Translations under genes and position numbers: made by a program
Shown: positions 37,336-50,455 of the stretch, piece after piece
Layout of the letters: each line of letters opens with the position of its first letter
Numbering within the stretch: the first letter of the stretch is position 1
Notes under the pieces: model-generated
Told to the model about the DNA's origin: nothing
Database searches by the model: none
Seen by the model: the letters and a program-made list of their open reading frames with translations, nothing else
DNA from: Natronobacterium gregoryi SP2
Lineage (GTDB): Archaea > Halobacteriota > Halobacteria > Halobacteriales > Natrialbaceae
Assembly: GCF_000230715.2 (NCBI RefSeq)
Contig: NC_019792.1
Location: 434,001 to 498,000 of the forward strand
Length of the DNA stretch: 64,000 nucleotides
Direction of reading: 5' to 3'

Positions 37336-37404
37336 CGTAGGCCGACGCCACGTTTGGCGCACGCCAAACAAGCGGTATGCTCCCGCAGTCGTTACTCGAG
37401 AGTG

Positions 37405-39945
37405 ATGAGTGAGTTGTCTTCCGAGACGCCGGACTCGAGTCGTCGACTCGAGCTTCTGGTGCCCGAGATGGACTGTCCTTCCTGTGCCGGGAAGATACGC
37501 AAAAGCGTCGAGGCGCTCGAGGGCATCGACGAGATCGAACCACGAGTGACGAGCGGCCGCCTGGTCGTCGACTACGATCCGACGGTCGCCACTCCCGACG
37601 AGATCCGAGAGCGCGTTCGAGCCGCAGGTTACGCGATCGAAGCTGCAGGCGGCGAGCTCACGCTGTCGGTCCCCGAGATGGATTGTCCCTCCTGTGCTGG
37701 CAAGGTCGAGAACGCACTCGCCGCCCTCGAGGGCGTTGGCGGAATCGAGACGCGGCCGACGTCGGGTCGCGTGACGGTGTCGGTTGCGGCGGACACCGAC
37801 TCGGAGACGCTCGTCGACGCCGTCGAAAGTGCAGGCTACGACGCGACGCTGCTGTCGGACGACGGTGACCCGCTCTCCGAGAAGCAGGCGGTCTGGCGGA
37901 GTCGCCGGGCCGTCGGGACTGCCGTCGGTGCCGTCCTCGTGACCGCCGGAATCGCGCTCGAGTTCGTCGTTCCCGGAATCGACCCGCTGCTGGGAACGAT
38001 CGCGGGACGGGAGTACGCGCTTTCGCATGTCCTCTTTATCGTGGCTGTCGTCGTTGCCGGAACGCCGATTCTGCGCAATGGCTACTACTCGGCGCGAAAC
38101 CGGAGCCTGGACATCGACTTCTTGATGACCGTCGGCATCGTCGCCTCCGTCGCGGCTCACCATCCGTTCGAGGGGGCGTTGCTTGCGGTGTTGTTCTCGG
38201 TCGCGGAGTTACTCGAGCGGTTCTCGATGGACCGTGCCCGGGATTCGCTGCGGGAACTGATGGATCTCTCGCCGGACACCGCGACGGTCAAACGCGACGG
38301 GGGTGAGGAGACGATCCCCGCGGACGAACTCGTCGTCGGCGACGTGGTCGTCGTCCGACCGGGCGAGAAGATTCCCGCGGACGGGATCGTCCGCGACGGC
38401 GAGAGTGCGGTCGACCAGTCCCCGATCACGGGCGAGAGCGTCCCCGAAGACAAAACCGAGGGCGACGAGGTGTACGCCGGCACGATCGCCGAATCGGGCT
38501 ATCTCGAGGTCGAAGTCGAGAGTGCGGGAGACGACTCGACGCTCGCCCGGATCATCCGGATGGTCGAGGACGCCGAACGCGAAAAGACCGAACGCGAGCA
38601 GTTTATCGACCGGTTCGCGAGCGTCTACACGCCGATCGTGGTTGTGCTCGCGGCCGCGGCTGCGGTCGTGCCGCCGCTTGCCTTCGGCGCGTCCTGGAGC
38701 TACTGGTTCGTCGTCGGCCTGACGCTGCTCGTGATCTCCTGTCCCTGCGCGCTGGTCATCTCGACGCCAGTCAGCGTCGTCTCGGGGATCACGAGCGCCG
38801 CCCGCAACGGCGTCCTCATCAAGGGCGGACGCCACCTCGAGGCGGTCGGCGATAGCGACGTGCTCGCGGTCGACAAGACGGGGACGTTGACCGAGGGCGA
38901 CCTTTCGGTGACCGACGTGATTCCGCTCGAGGGGGCAGACGAAGCCGAGGTCCTCCGGCGTGCGAGTGCAGCCGAACGACGCAGCGAGCACCCGATCGGT
39001 CAGTCGATCGTCGGCTACGCGGACGAACAGGGAGTCGACGCCGACTGCGAGGTCGGCGACTTCGAGGCGTTGACTGGCAAAGGCGTTCGTGCGGAAATCG
39101 ACGGCGAAACCCACTACGTCGGCAAGCCCGACTTGTTCGACGGCCTCGCGGACCTCGAGCACGTCCACGTGACGACCGACGGCGGCGTTGCACTCGAGTC
39201 GCTGGGATACGAGACTGCCTCGAAATGTAATCGTCCGGGCTGTCTGGACGTGGTTGCCGACGTCGTGCCGAAACTCGAGGCTGAGGGGAAGACGGTCGTG
39301 ATCGTCGGCTCCGAGGACGGACCACTCGGCGTGATCGCCGTCGCCGACCGCGTTCGGCCCGAAGCCGAGTGGGCCGTCTCCCAACTGCAAGACCAGGGGG
39401 TTCGCGTCGTGATGCTCACTGGCGACAACGAGGGCACCGCGCGAGCGATCGCGAACGAGGTCGGAATCGACGAGTACCACGCCGAACTCCTGCCGGAGGA
39501 GAAACTCGAGTGGATTCGACGACTCGAGAACACCGAGGACGACGAGGACGGTTCCCAGGACGACGCCCACGTCGCCATGGTCGGCGATGGGATCAACGAC
39601 GCACCCGCGCTGGCGACCGCGACCGTCGGAATCGCGATGGGCGCTGCGGGGACCGACACCGCACTCGAGACGGCCGACGTGGCGTTGATGGGCGACGATC
39701 TCACCCGGCTGCCGTACCTCTACGAACTCTCGGGGAAGGCAAACGGCGTCATCCGGCAGAACATCTGGTCGAGCCTCGCGGTGAAGGCAGTGCTCGCTGT
39801 CGGCGCACCGTTTGGCATCGTCACGGTGATCCACGCCGTCGTCGTCGGCGACATGGGGATGAGTCTGGGCGTGACGGGCAACGCGATGCGACTCGCGAAC
39901 GTCGAGCCGGAGACACCCGAAGCGATAGCCGAGATCGAGCGGTAA
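37405..39945 (+). CDS. Heavy-metal P1B-type ATPase (Zn/Cd/Pb type by motif)
   Basis: 846 residues from ATG at 37405. Exports metal ions at the cost of ATP. Two N-terminal metal-binding domains each have MDCPSCA (Cys24/27 and Cys94/97). Core motifs: TGESVPEDK, transmembrane SCPCALVISTP with C446-P-C448, phosphorylation site DKTGTLTEG (Asp490), and GDGINDAPAL. The CPCALVISTP form and an Asp in the last helix (VVGDMGMSLGVTGNAMRL) are typical of Zn/Cd/Pb transport and not of copper. An unusual CNRPGC segment is inserted in the nucleotide domain (about residues 611-616). Confidence 0.92.
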   Translation: MSELSSETPDSSRRLELLVPEMDCPSCAGKIRKSVEALEGIDEIEPRVTSGRLVVDYDPTVATPDEIRERVRAAGYAIEAAGGELTLSVPEMDCPSCAGKVENALAALEGVGGIETRPTSGRVTVSVAADTDSETLVDAVESAGYDATLLSDDGDPLSEKQAVWRSRRAVGTAVGAVLVTAGIALEFVVPGIDPLLGTIAGREYALSHVLFIVAVVVAGTPILRNGYYSARNRSLDIDFLMTVGIVASVAAHHPFEGALLAVLFSVAELLERFSMDRARDSLRELMDLSPDTATVKRDGGEETIPADELVVGDVVVVRPGEKIPADGIVRDGESAVDQSPITGESVPEDKTEGDEVYAGTIAESGYLEVEVESAGDDSTLARIIRMVEDAEREKTEREQFIDRFASVYTPIVVVLAAAAAVVPPLAFGASWSYWFVVGLTLLVISCPCALVISTPVSVVSGITSAARNGVLIKGGRHLEAVGDSDVLAVDKTGTLTEGDLSVTDVIPLEGADEAEVLRRASAAERRSEHPIGQSIVGYADEQGVDADCEVGDFEALTGKGVRAEIDGETHYVGKPDLFDGLADLEHVHVTTDGGVALESLGYETASKCNRPGCLDVVADVVPKLEAEGKTVVIVGSEDGPLGVIAVADRVRPEAEWAVSQLQDQGVRVVMLTGDNEGTARAIANEVGIDEYHAELLPEEKLEWIRRLENTEDDEDGSQDDAHVAMVGDGINDAPALATATVGIAMGAAGTDTALETADVALMGDDLTRLPYLYELSGKANGVIRQNIWSSLAVKAVLAVGAPFGIVTVIHAVVVGDMGMSLGVTGNAMRLANVEPETPEAIAEIER

Positions 39946-43876: not shown

Positions 43877-44545
43877 ATGAGAGATATGAGCGAGGACTAT
43901 CAAAACGGAGACTCACGGCGCTCATTTATGAAGAAAGGCACGCTGGCTGCGACCGCCCTCGCAGTCGGTGCCGGCGCTACCGCAGGAAGCACCGCTGCCC
44001 AGGAAAACGACGAAGGCGAAGTCGTGGTGCACGCACACGACTACTACCCGGAAGCGACCTTCGAGGTGCTAACCGAGTTCGACACGCCGACTCGTGACAG
44101 CTTCCTCGAGAACCTCGACGAGGACGGGGACGTGTTCGACGATCCGGCTGACTGGAACGTGCACGCGGTCCGTATCGAAACGGATGGCGACGGCAGCCCA
44201 CTTGGATACGTCATGGAAGAAGAGACGCTGAACCTCAGCGAGGGAGACGGAGGGTCGTTCGCCGAGACCGCGTCCTTCCGATCCCCAGCTATGAACCTGC
44301 TCGAGGTCGACGCCACGGCCGAAGAAGTCGACGACGAAGACGACGAGGTCGACGACGAAGACGACGAGATGAACGACGAGGTTGACGACGAAGATGACGA
44401 GATGAACGACGAGGTTGACGACGAAGATGACGAGATGAACGACGAGGTTGACGACGAAGACGACGAGATGAACGACGAGGTCGACGACGAGGAGAACGAC
44501 AACAACAACAACAACAACGACAACGACGACGGTATCTTCGGGTAA
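43877..44545 (+). CDS. Secreted acidic repeat protein, paralog 1 of a new three-member family
   Basis: 222 residues. The Tat signal has SRRSFMKKGTLAATALAVGA and an AxA-like TAAQ cleavage site. The mature core has VVVHAHDYYPEATFEVLTEF, RDSFLENLDEDGDVFDD and DWNVHAVRIETDGDGSP, which align with the two genes at 49455 and 50009. The tail is an 11-residue repeat (DDEDDEMNDEV, four full units encoded by near-identical 33-nt repeats, 44361-44491), then Asn-rich NDNNNNNNDND and the end DDGIFG. Asp/Asn repeats suggest calcium or cation binding at the cell surface; this is inference. The start at 43877 or 43886 (fourth codon) both retain the signal. Confidence 0.8.
   Translation: MRDMSEDYQNGDSRRSFMKKGTLAATALAVGAGATAGSTAAQENDEGEVVVHAHDYYPEATFEVLTEFDTPTRDSFLENLDEDGDVFDDPADWNVHAVRIETDGDGSPLGYVMEEETLNLSEGDGGSFAETASFRSPAMNLLEVDATAEEVDDEDDEVDDEDDEMNDEVDDEDDEMNDEVDDEDDEMNDEVDDEDDEMNDEVDDEENDNNNNNNDNDDGIFG
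44361..44491. repeat. Tandem 33-nt repeats in the acidic tail
   Basis: About four units of 33 nt, each encoding DDEDDEMNDEV, nearly identical in DNA (GATGACGAGATGAACGACGA core). Such arrays change length by slippage or recombination. Confidence 0.85.
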
Positions 44546-44669
44546 CCACATCTTCTCCGTTTCGGAAGCGAACGGACCGACGACCCCGTCCGACAGCTCC
44601 CCGCCGTGACCGTTCCACTGTGTCGTGGCGGGCCGGGTTCATTTTCTATTCTGGAAGTCGTTGGCTGAG

Positions 44670-44744
44670 ACAGGTCACTGTCAGCCGTTTGCAGTACAAC
44701 CGCGACCGAAGGCGGTTCACCGGAACATCGTTCCGGCAATCCGT
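44670..44744. repeat. 79-bp palindromic element, copy 9 (diverged)
   Basis: Preceded by TGAG; left end ACAGGTCACTGTC and right end ATCCGT, with a core CAACCGCGACC...GGCGGTTCACC. Between two convergent genes. Confidence 0.6.
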
Positions 44745-44834
44745 CTGATACGGACTCCACATCTACCAGTGACGGTCCACACCGACAAAAACCGGAGTAG
44801 TAGACGATCCGCTACGGGCAGCAGGTCGAAGCCG

Positions 44835-47800
44835 TCACGGCCGTTCCGTCGGCTCACTCCCACCGAAAGCGTCTGTCCGTTCGACGTGTCGATGCCACAG
44901 AACAAGGAAACTCGGAAGGACGAAGACGCTCCCCAGAAACGCGTACGCGATCGTCAACGCGATGATTATGGCGAACTGCTCGAGCACCGTCAGGATAGCG
45001 AACACGAGCATTCCGAATCCCAGGGCGGTCGTCCCGGCGCTGCCAAACAGCGCCCCGCCGGTTCCCGTGACGCTCCGATGGAGGGCATCCTGCAGTGACT
45101 CTTCGCGTCCCCGTTCGATCATAAACCGTTCGGTCATGTGGATGTTGTAGGCGACGCCGAGTCCGATCGTCAAGCTCGTGATCGTTCCGGTCACGACGTT
45201 GAACGGAATCGACAGCAGATGCATCGTCCCGAGTATCCAGGTCACAGAGAGGACGATCGGTGCGAGGGTGATCGCTCCGAGGGTCGCGCTCCCGTATCGC
45301 ACCCGATAGGCGATCATGAGCACGAGGAACACCCCCGCTATACTCACGAGGAGACTCTCGAACACTGCCTGGAAAACGTCGTCTTCGACGGCATCGAAGA
45401 CGATCGGCTGCCCAGTCGCCGCCGCCTCGAGTCCATCTCCCTCTATTTCGGCTGCGATCGCCCGGCCGTCCGCCGTCACGTGTTCGGCATCCGCGTCGGC
45501 GTCGACCGAGACGAGCAACTGAAGCGCCTCGTACTCGCGGCCAGTAGACGAGTCCTCGTCTTGCTCGGTCCAGTTGAGCACGTCGACAGCACGGTCCTCG
45601 TCGGCTTCGACGAACTCGTCGTAGACGTCCTCGAGATCCTCATCGGGGATGTCGTCGCCGGTCGTATCCGCGTCGGTGAACGTCTCGTTGAACGTCTCGT
45701 TCTGTGCGGCGGCCGCTTGCATTTCCGACAGCGGACTGGTGACGTGTGGCTCGTCGTTCGGGAGGATGATCGTCGTCTCGAGTTCATCAGCCAGCGTTTC
45801 CGCTTCGTCGATCCGCTCTAACGTATCGTTTTGGGTCACGTTCCCGTCGACGACGACGTGCAACCGCTCGTCTAACCTGAGGAATCGTTCGTCGACGTAC
45901 GAGAGGCTCGCGTCGGTCTCGTACTCGCCGACTGCGAGGGGTTCGGGCAATTCCTGTGCCCACTCCGGAGGATCGTCGGCGATGAAATCTTCGTCGTCGA
46001 AGGTCGTATCGATCTGGATAGCGCCGATCGTGCCGCTTGCCGTAAGTACCACCACGAGAGCGACGACGAGCCATGGACTCTGATCGGACGCTTTCTGCCC
46101 CAGCGACAACACCTTGGAGATCCGGCCGCCACCGGTTCCGAACGCTGGCTTCCGTCGGTCCATGCCGAGCCACTCGAACACTTCGTCGAGTTCGACTTTG
46201 ACCGCCGGCACGAGCGCGCCGAAGATAGCGAACGCAGAGACGATGCCGAACGCGCTTGCGATCCCGAACTCCTGGATCGGCTCGATCGGACTGACCACGT
46301 TCGAGAGAAAACCGATCGCCGCCGTCGTCGTGACCCAGAGAAACGCGATACCGAGTCCGACCAGGACGACTGTCATCGCCTTCCTGGGCGCGGCTTCGTC
46401 TTCACTCGCCGCTCGTCTGCGCTGCTCCCGGTGTCGCATGAACACGTGGATCGAATAGTCGATACTCAATCCGATGAGCAACACCGGTACCGCGATCATG
46501 ATCTGGTTGAACTCGATCCCCGTCCAGCCCATGAACCCGAACGTCCAGACGAGCACCAGACCGATCCCGAACAGCCCCAACACGATGTCGAGCAGGTCGC
46601 GGTAGACGATCGTCAACACGACGACAACGAACAGTGCTGCAAGTGGTAAAACGAGCGTGAAACTGTCTATCATCGACCGGTCGATCTCGTCGGCTAAAAT
46701 CCCACCCCCGAACACGAGCGCATCGTCGCCGAACCGGTCGTCTGCGATTTCCGCCAGCGCGATCTGCTGGTCGACGATCTCGTCGTCCGCGTCAAAGGCA
46801 AGCGCCTCGGCCTCCTCAGTCTGCTGAGTCACGAACAACATCCTAGCGTCGGCCGTCGCCGAGCCAGTCTCGAAGTCACGTGGAACGAACAGGAACAACT
46901 CCCGCTGGGCGTCGTCGCCAAGGGTCTCCTCCGTCACGTTCTCGACCTCCGACTGGTTCATCCCCTCTATCTCCTCGAACTGTTCGTCGAACGTCAACTC
47001 GAGATCCGGAATCTCCTCTTGCGCCTGCTCCTCCAAGTCGTCTCCCCACCGCTCTACCGTCGCAATTCTAGCGGCGAAAACGTCGTCCTCGACAGCTCCG
47101 TATATCTCCTCGAGTTCCGCGGAGAGTTCGCCGGTTCGTTCTTCGAACTCGTCCACCGAAATCGGGTCGAACTGTGCACTGAACCCAACTTCGATCAGTT
47201 CACCCTGAACCGTGCGGGTCTCCGCGAGCAGTTCCGCGAAGGCCGCGTACTCCTCGTCGGTCAACGTCTCGCGGGCCTCTTCGTCGACTGCCTCGAACTC
47301 GGTTTCGAGACCGGCGCGCTCGCCTTCGTAGGTCTCCTCGTCGATCGCCTCGAGTTCGAAGGCAAGTTCGTTCTCGACGTAGACCGCCTGGATGTCGCGC
47401 GTCTCGTTTAGCAGTTCGACTGCCCGCTCCGAGCGCTCCTCGAGTGCCACGCGTTCGGCCTCGATTTCGGCAGCCGCGTCGGCGAAAACCTCTTCCTCGA
47501 CAGCGTCGTAGATCCCCTCGAGTTGCGCGCCGAGTTCGGCCGTGCGCTGTTGGAACTCTGCCTGGCCGATCTGTCCCCGTTCGAACTGGACACCGACCTG
47601 AAACAGTTCGCCCTGTACCTCTCGCGTGTCCAAAAGCAGGCTCGCGAAGACCGCGTACTCCTCGTCGGTCAGCGTCTCGCGGGCCTCCGCGTGAACGGCC
47701 GCGAACTCGCTTTCGAGACGCTCGCGCTCGGCCTCGTAGGTCCCCTCGTCGATCTGGCCGGTCTCGAACGCCAGCTCGTTTTCGGCGTAGGCCTCCTGGA

Positions 47801-48728
47801 CGGCGCGAGTCTCGTTTAGCAACTCGACCGCCCGCCCCGAGCGCTCCTCGAGTGCCACGCGTTCGGCCTCGATTTCGGCAGCCGCGTCGGCGAAAACCTC
47901 CTCCTCGACAGCGTCGTAGATCCCCTCGAGTTGCACACCGAGTTCGGCCGTGCGCCGTTCGAATTCCTCGTCGTCGAGGCCGTCGAACTCGTGTCTGACC
48001 CCGAGACGGAACAGTTCGCCCTGGGCCTCGCTGGCGTTTACGAGCAACTTCTCGAACGCCTCGTACTCCTCGTCGGCGAAGGCGTCCTGCGCTCTGTCTT
48101 CGACAGCCGCCGCTTCGTCCTCGAGACGCGCGCGCTCGAATTCGTACACTTCCTCGTCGATCGCCTCGAGTTCGTACGCGAGTTCGTTCTCCTCGTTGGC
48201 CTCCCGCAAGTCGCGGGCCTCGTCGATCAGTTCGACGGCGGTGTCGACGTCTGCTTCGAGCGCTTCGGACTCGTTTTCCAGATCCTCGAACCTGTCTTCG
48301 ACGAGGTCGGCTTCGTCGCCCTGGACGGACGCAGTCGCGACGATTTCCGACAGTCCCTGGAACGGATCGTCTTCGACGAGACTCTCACGTACTGTCTCGT
48401 TCTCCCGCAACTCGCGTTGGAAGGCAAGCGTCTCGAGCAACGACTCGTTCGAGAGGACATCGTCACCGCGTAGCACGACCTGGGTCGTCGTCTCGTTTGC
48501 CTCGACACCGAACCGCTCCTGGGCGGCGTCGTATTCGTCGGCCTCCTCGAGGTCGGCCTCGAACTGCTCGAGAGACGCCTCTTCCTCGAGGAGGAGAATT
48601 CCGTTCCCAAGTATCAGCGAGAGCACGAGCATCGTGGCGATCACCGTCTTGCTCCACCCGGTTATCACGCCGAGGAGACGTTCGCCCGCGCTCGAAGAGT
48701 CCGACTCGTCCCCTCGAGTTCGTTTCAT
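44835..48728 (-). CDS. RND superfamily (MMPL-type) membrane exporter with repeated helical ectodomain
   Basis: 1297 residues. After a first membrane helix (TVIATMLVLSLILGNGILL) comes an external region of about 560 residues. It contains three ~136-residue helical repeats, recognisable by AVELLNETRA...YENELAFE, EARETLTDEEYA, EVQGELF...GV and RTAELGAQLEGIYDAVEEEV; repeats 2 and 3 share long identical stretches. Then follows the first RND membrane block (LVLPLAALFVVVVLTIVYRD, VPVLLIGLSIDYSIHVFMRHR), a second external region, and a second block (IGLGVAYNIHMTERFMIERG, LFGSAGTTALGFGMLVF). The Asp in GLSIDYSIH is the proton-relay position. It probably exports a lipid or hydrophobic compound. Its repeats could span the S-layer or bind the neighbouring secreted proteins; that is inference. 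Confidence 0.88.
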   Translation of the reverse strand: MKRTRGDESDSSSAGERLLGVITGWSKTVIATMLVLSLILGNGILLLEEEASLEQFEADLEEADEYDAAQERFGVEANETTTQVVLRGDDVLSNESLLETLAFQRELRENETVRESLVEDDPFQGLSEIVATASVQGDEADLVEDRFEDLENESEALEADVDTAVELIDEARDLREANEENELAYELEAIDEEVYEFERARLEDEAAAVEDRAQDAFADEEYEAFEKLLVNASEAQGELFRLGVRHEFDGLDDEEFERRTAELGVQLEGIYDAVEEEVFADAAAEIEAERVALEERSGRAVELLNETRAVQEAYAENELAFETGQIDEGTYEAERERLESEFAAVHAEARETLTDEEYAVFASLLLDTREVQGELFQVGVQFERGQIGQAEFQQRTAELGAQLEGIYDAVEEEVFADAAAEIEAERVALEERSERAVELLNETRDIQAVYVENELAFELEAIDEETYEGERAGLETEFEAVDEEARETLTDEEYAAFAELLAETRTVQGELIEVGFSAQFDPISVDEFEERTGELSAELEEIYGAVEDDVFAARIATVERWGDDLEEQAQEEIPDLELTFDEQFEEIEGMNQSEVENVTEETLGDDAQRELFLFVPRDFETGSATADARMLFVTQQTEEAEALAFDADDEIVDQQIALAEIADDRFGDDALVFGGGILADEIDRSMIDSFTLVLPLAALFVVVVLTIVYRDLLDIVLGLFGIGLVLVWTFGFMGWTGIEFNQIMIAVPVLLIGLSIDYSIHVFMRHREQRRRAASEDEAAPRKAMTVVLVGLGIAFLWVTTTAAIGFLSNVVSPIEPIQEFGIASAFGIVSAFAIFGALVPAVKVELDEVFEWLGMDRRKPAFGTGGGRISKVLSLGQKASDQSPWLVVALVVVLTASGTIGAIQIDTTFDDEDFIADDPPEWAQELPEPLAVGEYETDASLSYVDERFLRLDERLHVVVDGNVTQNDTLERIDEAETLADELETTIILPNDEPHVTSPLSEMQAAAAQNETFNETFTDADTTGDDIPDEDLEDVYDEFVEADEDRAVDVLNWTEQDEDSSTGREYEALQLLVSVDADADAEHVTADGRAIAAEIEGDGLEAAATGQPIVFDAVEDDVFQAVFESLLVSIAGVFLVLMIAYRVRYGSATLGAITLAPIVLSVTWILGTMHLLSIPFNVVTGTITSLTIGLGVAYNIHMTERFMIERGREESLQDALHRSVTGTGGALFGSAGTTALGFGMLVFAILTVLEQFAIIIALTIAYAFLGSVFVLPSFLVLWHRHVERTDAFGGSEPTERP

Positions 48729-49454
48729 TGGTGCGTCGTATCGAACGGGTGTCGCGAAACGGTTGTCGTCGCGTTCGGCCAGGGGTCACTGATACGAGTT
48801 ACTGTAATCAATCACCGCCGATCGCCAGAACGGGTCGGCGATCGGCGGTAACTAGTCACAGCAATCCGTATGAGGAGTCGGGCCGTCTGGATAGCGCCCG
48901 TGGACTGTGCCGTTCGTCCGTGGGTCGGTCGGCTAATTTGTCGGCCGCAACGACCCAGTTCGGTGCCGATCACGATGGATTCGCCGCCGCGACCGTCACT
49001 CGTGGTGGGACCTCCGCATCGAGCGTCCGGGGAATCGATGTCGTCCTGGCTTCGTTCGGTTGGCACGACCGGCCGTTACTCCATTGACGAGGGACATAAG
49101 TCCCACACGTCCGTTCGGTACGAAGACTGTTCGAACGACTGATACGAAACAGTGTACCTGTCTGCTGGCGCAACGACGGCCAAGCGACAGTCGTGCTGGC
49201 AGCGACATACGGCGGTCCGGCGGTCGTTGGCCTCCGCCCGGTCCAGTCAGCCGGGACGACGTTCCGACACCAGCACGGCCACGAGCAGCGGATCGATTCC
49301 GATTCTCTCACCCGGTCGAGCCAATCGTGAATCGCCTCGAGGTCAAGCCCTGAGCTTTCTCCCTGCCTGTAAACGACGGCATTACTCGAAACCGGCAACC
49401 GGCCACAGCCCATCGGGATGTACCACGGACAGGTGGCAACCGAAAGCCGAGCTA
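48729..49454. other. Gene-free region, about 725 bp, with one palindromic element
   Basis: It holds palindromic copy 10 near its left end. The remainder has several overlapping open stretches without domain similarity or typical codon use; no gene is claimed. It must hold the promoter of the RND gene on the left. Confidence 0.4.
48794..48870. repeat. 79-bp palindromic element, copy 10
   Basis: Same GATCGCC subtype as copy 3, with CACCGCCGATCGCC paired with GGCGATCGGCGGT; ends ACGAGTTACTGTAA and CACAGCAATCCGTA, followed by TGAG. Confidence 0.75.
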
Positions 49455-50009
49455 TCAGCCGAAGAGTCCGTCGTCGTTGTCGTCGGTATTGTTGTTGTTG
49501 TTACTGTCGTTCTCTTCGTCGTCGACCTCGTCGTTCTCTTCGTCGTCGACCTCGTCGTTCTCTTCGTCGTCGACTGTCATTTCGACCTCGAGCAGATCCC
49601 AGTCGGTGTCCCAGAACGACGGTGATTCACCCATCGTTCCTCGATCACCCGGGTCCGGATCGATGTCGTTGTCGATCATCACGACTGCCAGCTCACCAGC
49701 CGGCTCGCCGACCTCGACGAGTATCGAGTAGACCTCCCAGTCGTCGTGATCGTCGAAGGCGTCCTCGCCGTCGTCGTACTCTTCGAGAAACTCGCTTCGG
49801 TTTCGCTCCTCGAAGCTCGTCAAGACGACGAACTCCTCGTTCGGGTAGTAATCTCGTGCCTTGAGGACGACGTCTTGGGTGTCTTGGGCGCTAGCGCTGC
49901 CTGCAGTGATCGAAACACCGGCACCCGACGCAAGCGCAGTAGCTGCAGCCGCTTCCAGTTTTTTACCGTCTGACGATTCGTCCGGTCGGTCGTGGTCGTC
50001 AACTGTCAT
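49455..50009 (-). CDS. Secreted acidic repeat protein, paralog 2
   Basis: 184 residues. The N-terminus has a KK rather than RR signal (GKKLEAAAATALASGAGVSI) ending in SASAQ, so a Sec or weak Tat route is possible. The core DVVLKARDYYPNEEFVVLTSF, RSEFLEEYDDGEDAFDD and DWEVYSILVEV aligns with paralogs 1 and 3. The tail is an 8-residue repeat DDEENDEV followed by NDSNNNNNTDDND and the end DDGLFG, almost the same end as paralog 1. Its ATG overlaps the TAA of paralog 3 (TAATG), so both are made from one mRNA. Function unknown. Confidence 0.8.
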   Translation of the reverse strand: MTVDDHDRPDESSDGKKLEAAAATALASGAGVSITAGSASAQDTQDVVLKARDYYPNEEFVVLTSFEERNRSEFLEEYDDGEDAFDDHDDWEVYSILVEVGEPAGELAVVMIDNDIDPDPGDRGTMGESPSFWDTDWDLLEVEMTVDDEENDEVDDEENDEVDDEENDSNNNNNTDDNDDGLFG

Positions 50010-50455
50010 TAGAAGTCGACCTCCGTCTCGATCAAGTTCCGTTCGCGGTCGCGAAACGAGCCGATTTCACCCATCGTACCCGAGTCGCCGGGATCGACAT
50101 CCGGTTCGTCGTTGTCGACGTCGATCATCAGGTGGCCCAGTTCACCTTCGCTCTCGCCGATTTCGATTCGAACGACAAACACCTCCCAGTCGTCTACGTC
50201 GGTGAACACGTCTCCGTCGGGATCGTACTCCTCCAGAAAATCGTTTCGCGTCCCCGTCCCGAACTGAGTCAGCACTTCGAAATCAACGTCTGGATAGTAA
50301 TCTCTTCCGTGGAGGAAGGCATCATCATCCGGAGCAGCGGTGGCACTGGTGCTCGTCGATCCAGCCCCGACCGCGAGTGTGGTGGCCGCGAGTATCCCGT
50401 TCTTGATGAACGCTCGCCTCGAATCGCCTGCCGCGTTCTGCTTGTCTTCTGTCAT
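50009..50455 (-). CDS. Secreted acidic protein, paralog 3 (no repeat tail)
   Basis: 148 residues from ATG at 50455. Twin-arginine signal SRRAFIKNGILAATTLAVGA with a TATAA cleavage region, almost the same as in paralog 1. Core: FLHGRDYYPDVDFEVLTQF, RNDFLEEYDPDGDVFTD, DWEVFVVRIEIGESEGELGH and DPGDSGTMGEIGSF. It ends after RNLIETEVDF, where the other two paralogs go on into repetitive tails, so it defines the core domain of about 110 residues. It is the first gene of a two-gene operon. No known family was recognised. Confidence 0.8.
   Translation of the reverse strand: MTEDKQNAAGDSRRAFIKNGILAATTLAVGAGSTSTSATAAPDDDAFLHGRDYYPDVDFEVLTQFGTGTRNDFLEEYDPDGDVFTDVDDWEVFVVRIEIGESEGELGHLMIDVDNDEPDVDPGDSGTMGEIGSFRDRERNLIETEVDF

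Follow-up and report, generated by a model that had tools for sequence, protein, structure and literature searches.

Hitchhiking through the Tat translocase has so far been described for a few bacterial cofactor enzymes, among them Ni-Fe hydrogenases, formate dehydrogenases and PaoABC, in which one partner carries a twin-arginine signal and another is signal-less (PMC10924467, PMC4273604). The signal and a C-terminal feature can be split between the partners, as in formate dehydrogenase, where the signal and the C-tail lie on different subunits (PMC10924467). A literature search of open-licence papers returned no paper on Tat hitchhiking in haloarchaea. Tat export in Haloferax volcanii requires the twin arginine (RR), and substrates mutated to KK persist in precursor form (PMC2945643). 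A second point of comparison is the HVO_A0466 type of haloarchaeal locus, where an RND gene adjoins the gene for an exported protein that is held to be a likely functional partner; HVO_A0466 itself is described as four Ig domains that form a long fibre, with a TM helix at the C-terminus (PMC11349517).

The window analysed here, a stretch of 64,000 nt from Natronobacterium gregoryi SP2 (NC_019792.1, positions 434,001 to 498,000), likewise has an RND gene next to genes for exported proteins; the RND exporter P0004 is the sole gene between P1 and the genes P2 and P3 (Table 1). The preliminary description had reported three paralogs with one shared core, two of them with Asp/Glu/Asn repeat tails and the third ending after the core, placed around an RND gene with a repeated ectodomain; genes, strands, stops, tails and repeats were all borne out. 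Over ~105 residues the three cores are 42-53% identical, and 31 columns of their alignment are invariant, including D-Y-Y-P, V-L-T, F-L-E, D-W and G-D. When P3 was used as a query against the genome it recovered the other two paralogs (E 5e-35 and 7e-31), with the rest at chance level. The tail of P1 contains a 33-bp unit repeated 5.2 times (44320-44490) and that of P2 a 24-bp unit repeated 2.9 times (49506-49574). P1 had been given a start at 43877, in place of which we prefer 43886 (MSEDYQ) as the probable one, from analogy with P3. The stop of P3 and the start of P2 overlap by one base, therefore P3-P2 is a coupled pair and a unit separate from P1, which is a convergent gene.

Tat-type signals had been assigned to all three proteins. 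This stands for P1 and P3, whose motifs (SRRSFMKK and SRRAFIKN) follow the pattern S/T-R-R-x, then a weakly hydrophobic A-rich region and A-x-A; the Tat signal model TIGR01409 scores P1 slightly under its cut-off, and the genome encodes TatC. It does not stand for P2, whose leader has KK where RR is expected (DGKKLEAA; MTVDDHDRPDESSDGKKLEAAAATALASGAGVSITAGSASA), and this proved the most informative feature of the locus.

Table 1. Positions of the core genes, the RND exporter and their parts within the window.
Feature	Position	Strand	Remarks
P1	43886..44545	+	Start probable; twin arginine of the Tat signal at 43916-43921; core ~44012-44320; tail of acidic repeats with DDGIFG at its end
P1 acidic tail	44321..44542	+	D/E/N-rich; 33-bp tandem repeat
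RND exporter P0004	44835..48728	-	HAE3/MMPL-like, 1297 aa; PF03176, TIGR00921; two other genomes have a longer relative, an RND::ABC-2 permease fusion
Repeated helical ectodomain of RND	47235..48204	-	408-bp (136-residue) unit, about 2-2.4 detectable copies
P2	49455..50009	-	Leader Tat-like but with KK (49959-49964) in place of the twin arginine; core ~49575-49883; acidic tail with DDGLFG at its end
TAATG, P3 stop/P2 start	50007..50011	-	One-base overlap at 50009; translational coupling; gaps of -4 to +2 nt in related pairs (n=30)
P3	50009..50455	-	Twin arginine of an intact Tat signal at 50414-50419; core ~50012-50323; tail absent

The statement that the core lies outside described families held up in profile HMM and structure-prediction searches. 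Neither singly nor as a profile of 23 diverse members did the cores match Pfam, NCBIfam or PDB sequences. Only 2 of the 23 members gave a weak profile match to SH3_16 (E 0.035), and Foldseek gave no fold match. AlphaFold models built with 12 natural sequences (P3, pLDDT 82 and pTM 0.76; P2, pLDDT 87 and pTM 0.79) predict one common, compact, beta-rich topology of strand, strand, helix and five strands, for which Foldseek found no match below E 0.3 in the PDB or among viral structures (BFVD). GFP-like and OB-like candidates were weak, with TM below 0.46, and were discarded. Proteins of the P1/P2/P3 type thus have a single core of 8 secondary-structure elements, with a hydrophilic tail or none; unlike HVO_A0466, they consist of one ~105-residue domain and no TM helix.

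Within the samples searched, the family is confined to Halobacteria of the window's order. A first profile found it in 67/391 genomes of the class, and a second in 72/125 genomes of the window's family; in a sample of the phylum it occurs in 9/295. It is thus an addition to the catalogue of domain families, absent from Pfam and NCBIfam and present in more than half of this haloarchaeal family's genomes. A viral or mobile-element origin was rejected: viral contigs contained no relatives and plasmids only one, which is distant. At one locus the core domain is fused to a plastocyanin-type copper-binding domain (L085:5393-6334; PF00127, E 3e-15). The cation binding suggested earlier gained no direct support; neither the acidic loop nor the tail is conserved family-wide. 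Two Natrinema halophilum homologs are annotated 'calcium-binding protein'; no Ca-binding domain was recognised in these or in the 23 diverse cores, and no conserved metal-site pattern was found in the core. An EF-hand reading of DPDGDVFTDVDD was rejected, since the spacing and the glycine vary even between close orthologs and are lost elsewhere.

The 42 neighbourhoods with called genes show that core genes are mostly tandem. Moreover, signals and tails are distributed unevenly within the tandem pairs. A census of 148 distinct members, from which divergent third paralogs were excluded, comprised 79 with RR and a tail, 17 with RR and no tail, 29 with a degenerate leader lacking RR and 23 without a leader. 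The excluded type is a third, very divergent paralog (SLDDYRPG...) that stands behind many A-B pairs (e.g. L075:5295-5597, L077:6990-7295) and mostly has no recognisable Tat leader. None of the 49 tandem pairs is without RR, 40 have exactly one and nine have two. Random pairing gives 23.9 +/- 3.4 pairs with exactly one RR (maximum 36 in 20,000 shuffles), a comparison that overstates significance because both the members and the pairs are related. Likewise, exactly one tail is present in 46/49 pairs, against 24.7 +/- 3.5 in the shuffles. In P3-P2 types the signal is on the first gene and the tail on the second, and in A-B types both are on the first. Of the 30 pairs spaced by -4 to +2 nt, 29 have a downstream gene without RR (the exception, in L047, is a P2-type protein with KRR), compared with 6/31 among loosely spaced pairs; the 49 pairs are not independent, and the tight ones come from a few lineages (the P2 type, plus between one and three clades of the B type). 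All 23 leaderless members lie directly behind a member with RR. The family tree requires 13 or more changes of RR status. The cores of signal-less members are under purifying selection, as are their partners (median dN/dS 0.25 for the P2 type, 0.31 and 0.38, against 0.18-0.39 in the partners).

We propose, at about even odds (a probability of roughly 0.5), that P3 and P2 form a paralogous heterodimer, or a higher heteromer, that is exported through Tat as one unit. On this proposal both proteins would fold and assemble in the cytoplasm, and P3 would present the sole working twin-arginine signal to the translocase. P2, the product of the overlapping downstream gene, would hitchhike and contribute the single acidic tail. 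Once outside, the complex might be a binding module, either soluble or associated with the surface, in which the tail would act as a polyanionic, flexible arm or spacer. The window's genome and two others would couple the pair to an export module of the RND or RND-ABC kind, maybe as its substrate-binding or delivery partner. The hallmark of known hitchhikers is found at the locus, namely a signal on one subunit only and genes that are adjacent and coupled (TAATG; 29/30 tight pairs), and signal and C-terminal feature are divided between P3 and P2 as in formate dehydrogenase. Unlike the bacterial cases, however, the partners here are paralogs built on a single small domain, have no recognised cofactor, are archaeal and show repeated signal loss. 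If the proposal is true, these cofactor-free pairs offer an archaeal test, with many natural replicates, of the rule that Tat exports pre-assembled complexes, and the many signal-less members within a family of exported proteins are accounted for. We regard as tentative, and rather unlikely, the wider claim that this new-fold haloarchaeal family consists of obligate Tat-hitchhiking paralogous heterodimers with a repeated division of labour between signal and tail, which in some lineages partner a fused RND-ABC export machine from outside the cell.

The signal-less members could also have nothing to do with a complex: their leaders might still be in use, through inefficient Tat export or through Sec, or the genes might be duplicates that are drifting. 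P2 and the other leader-bearing members without RR do retain the Ala-rich region, the A-x-A site and a hydrophobicity equal to that of their RR partners. Some of these members may therefore be exported on their own. Many different residues have taken the place of RR, and tandem duplication is frequent. As a general account, however, this is unlikely: every pair keeps an RR and 40 of 49 keep exactly one, signal loss tracks tight coupling, and the cores are conserved. Moreover, KK in place of RR blocks Tat export in haloarchaea (PMC2945643).

Co-export of P3 and P2 also has to be weighed against the possibility that the partner lacking RR is a cytosolic companion, which binds its signal-bearing paralog before export for chaperoning or proof-reading, like Tat-specific chaperones, and stays inside. 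The 23 leaderless members, translationally coupled behind an exported partner and with cores under purifying selection, speak for such a role, and signal-less partners might simply be cytosolic. P2-type proteins, however, keep an A-rich leader with A-x-A and bear the acidic tail that the exported partner is missing, which would be odd for a cytosolic chaperone. We consider this account quite improbable.

P0004 matches PF03176 (MMPL) above the cut-off (E 2.6e-38) in two stretches that correspond to two membrane halves. Its best subfamily match is TIGR00921 (HAE3; E 1.3e-65), where its 221.8 bits fall under the curated cut-off of 351.9, so that by sequence we call it HAE3-like and make no claim of subfamily membership. 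It departs from HAE3/MMPL proteins in its 136-residue repeated ectodomain and in having two orthologs fused to an ABC-2 permease. Orthologs more than 75% identical occur in 3/125 genomes of the family, namely the window's, a contig of Natronolimnohabitans sp. A-GB9 (G406; L087/L091) and G029 (L052). The next-best RND is 60% identical over a partial length and has no adjoining core gene. In G406 and G029 a single ORF encodes the RND and, C-terminally, an ABC-2 permease domain (L087:10229-14848, 1539 aa; L052:7774-12345, 1523 aa). Genes for an ABC ATPase and another ABC-2 permease come next, the latter 31% identical to the fused domain (E 2e-11); the fusion was not found in any other of the 125 genomes (2/125). 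Between G029 and G406 the ABC ATPase is 96% identical, the RND 80% and the regulator 77%, a contrast that hints at recombination or strong constraint.

Both of these modules sit behind a Bat/HTH_10 regulator. Core genes have this regulator as a neighbour in L046, L047, L049, L050, L052, L054 and G406. Eight genomes contain its best orthologs (at least 54% identity), and in seven of them the ortholog adjoins a core gene; in the eighth, the window genome, the ortholog (72%) is solitary (L090:7358-8044, genome 2977857-2978543). The order P1 - RND - P2 - P3 - katG is common to the window and G406, but at this locus the window is missing both the regulator and the ABC part. No ABC remnant is recognisable downstream of its RND. 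The window has lost the ABC genes and the regulator of the RND module. G029 carries the module at another locus, therefore the module appears to travel as one piece. Same-genus relatives (L051, L057, L059), and likewise L048, have P1 as a resident gene, flanked by nadB/alkA on one side and katG on the other. P1 is self-sufficient, with signal, core and tail in a single chain, and belongs to this chromosomal spot. The bracketing of the RND by three paralogs is thus kept in one other genome (G406), and it stems from a module placed beside a resident P1.

It had been suggested that the exporter and the secreted proteins act together. For the small module a functional link between pair and RND is plausible: the RND ortholog is directly downstream of a P3-P2 pair in 3/3 genomes, once at a non-syntenic locus, and on the basis of these three the pair may have a role with it. 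The link does not extend to the family as a whole, and here the HVO_A0466 type differs, as only three genomes tie a core pair to an RND. The ortholog is absent from 69/72 core-bearing genomes of the family, and none of the 40 other core neighbourhoods examined by called genes contains an RND; therefore the core family does not need one. That three secreted proteins and the RND form one dedicated, perhaps cation-binding, cell-surface system is improbable, since the constant adjacency and the regulator and ABC genes in two of three genomes are outweighed by the many core-bearing genomes without the RND, the older residence of P1 and a core with no conserved metal-site pattern.

A scan for conserved blocks with a narrow alignment returned four named loci. 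A functional tie of the core to katG or DNA repair was rejected, because the katG, alkA, thyA/folA and aconitase neighbours look like lineage-wise synteny (identities by eye). Upstream of the locus (37354-39945) lies a gene for a heavy-metal P-type ATPase with an HMA domain, syntenic in relatives as judged by eye. Lastly, L150-L153 contain an ABC module of a related kind, with two ABC-2 permeases and an ATPase that is 61-65% identical, and no RND. In L150 and L151, for which genes were called, it lies near multicopper-oxidase-like, YHS-domain or halocyanin-like genes (names assigned by eye), which suggests that these modules reside in metal-related islands.
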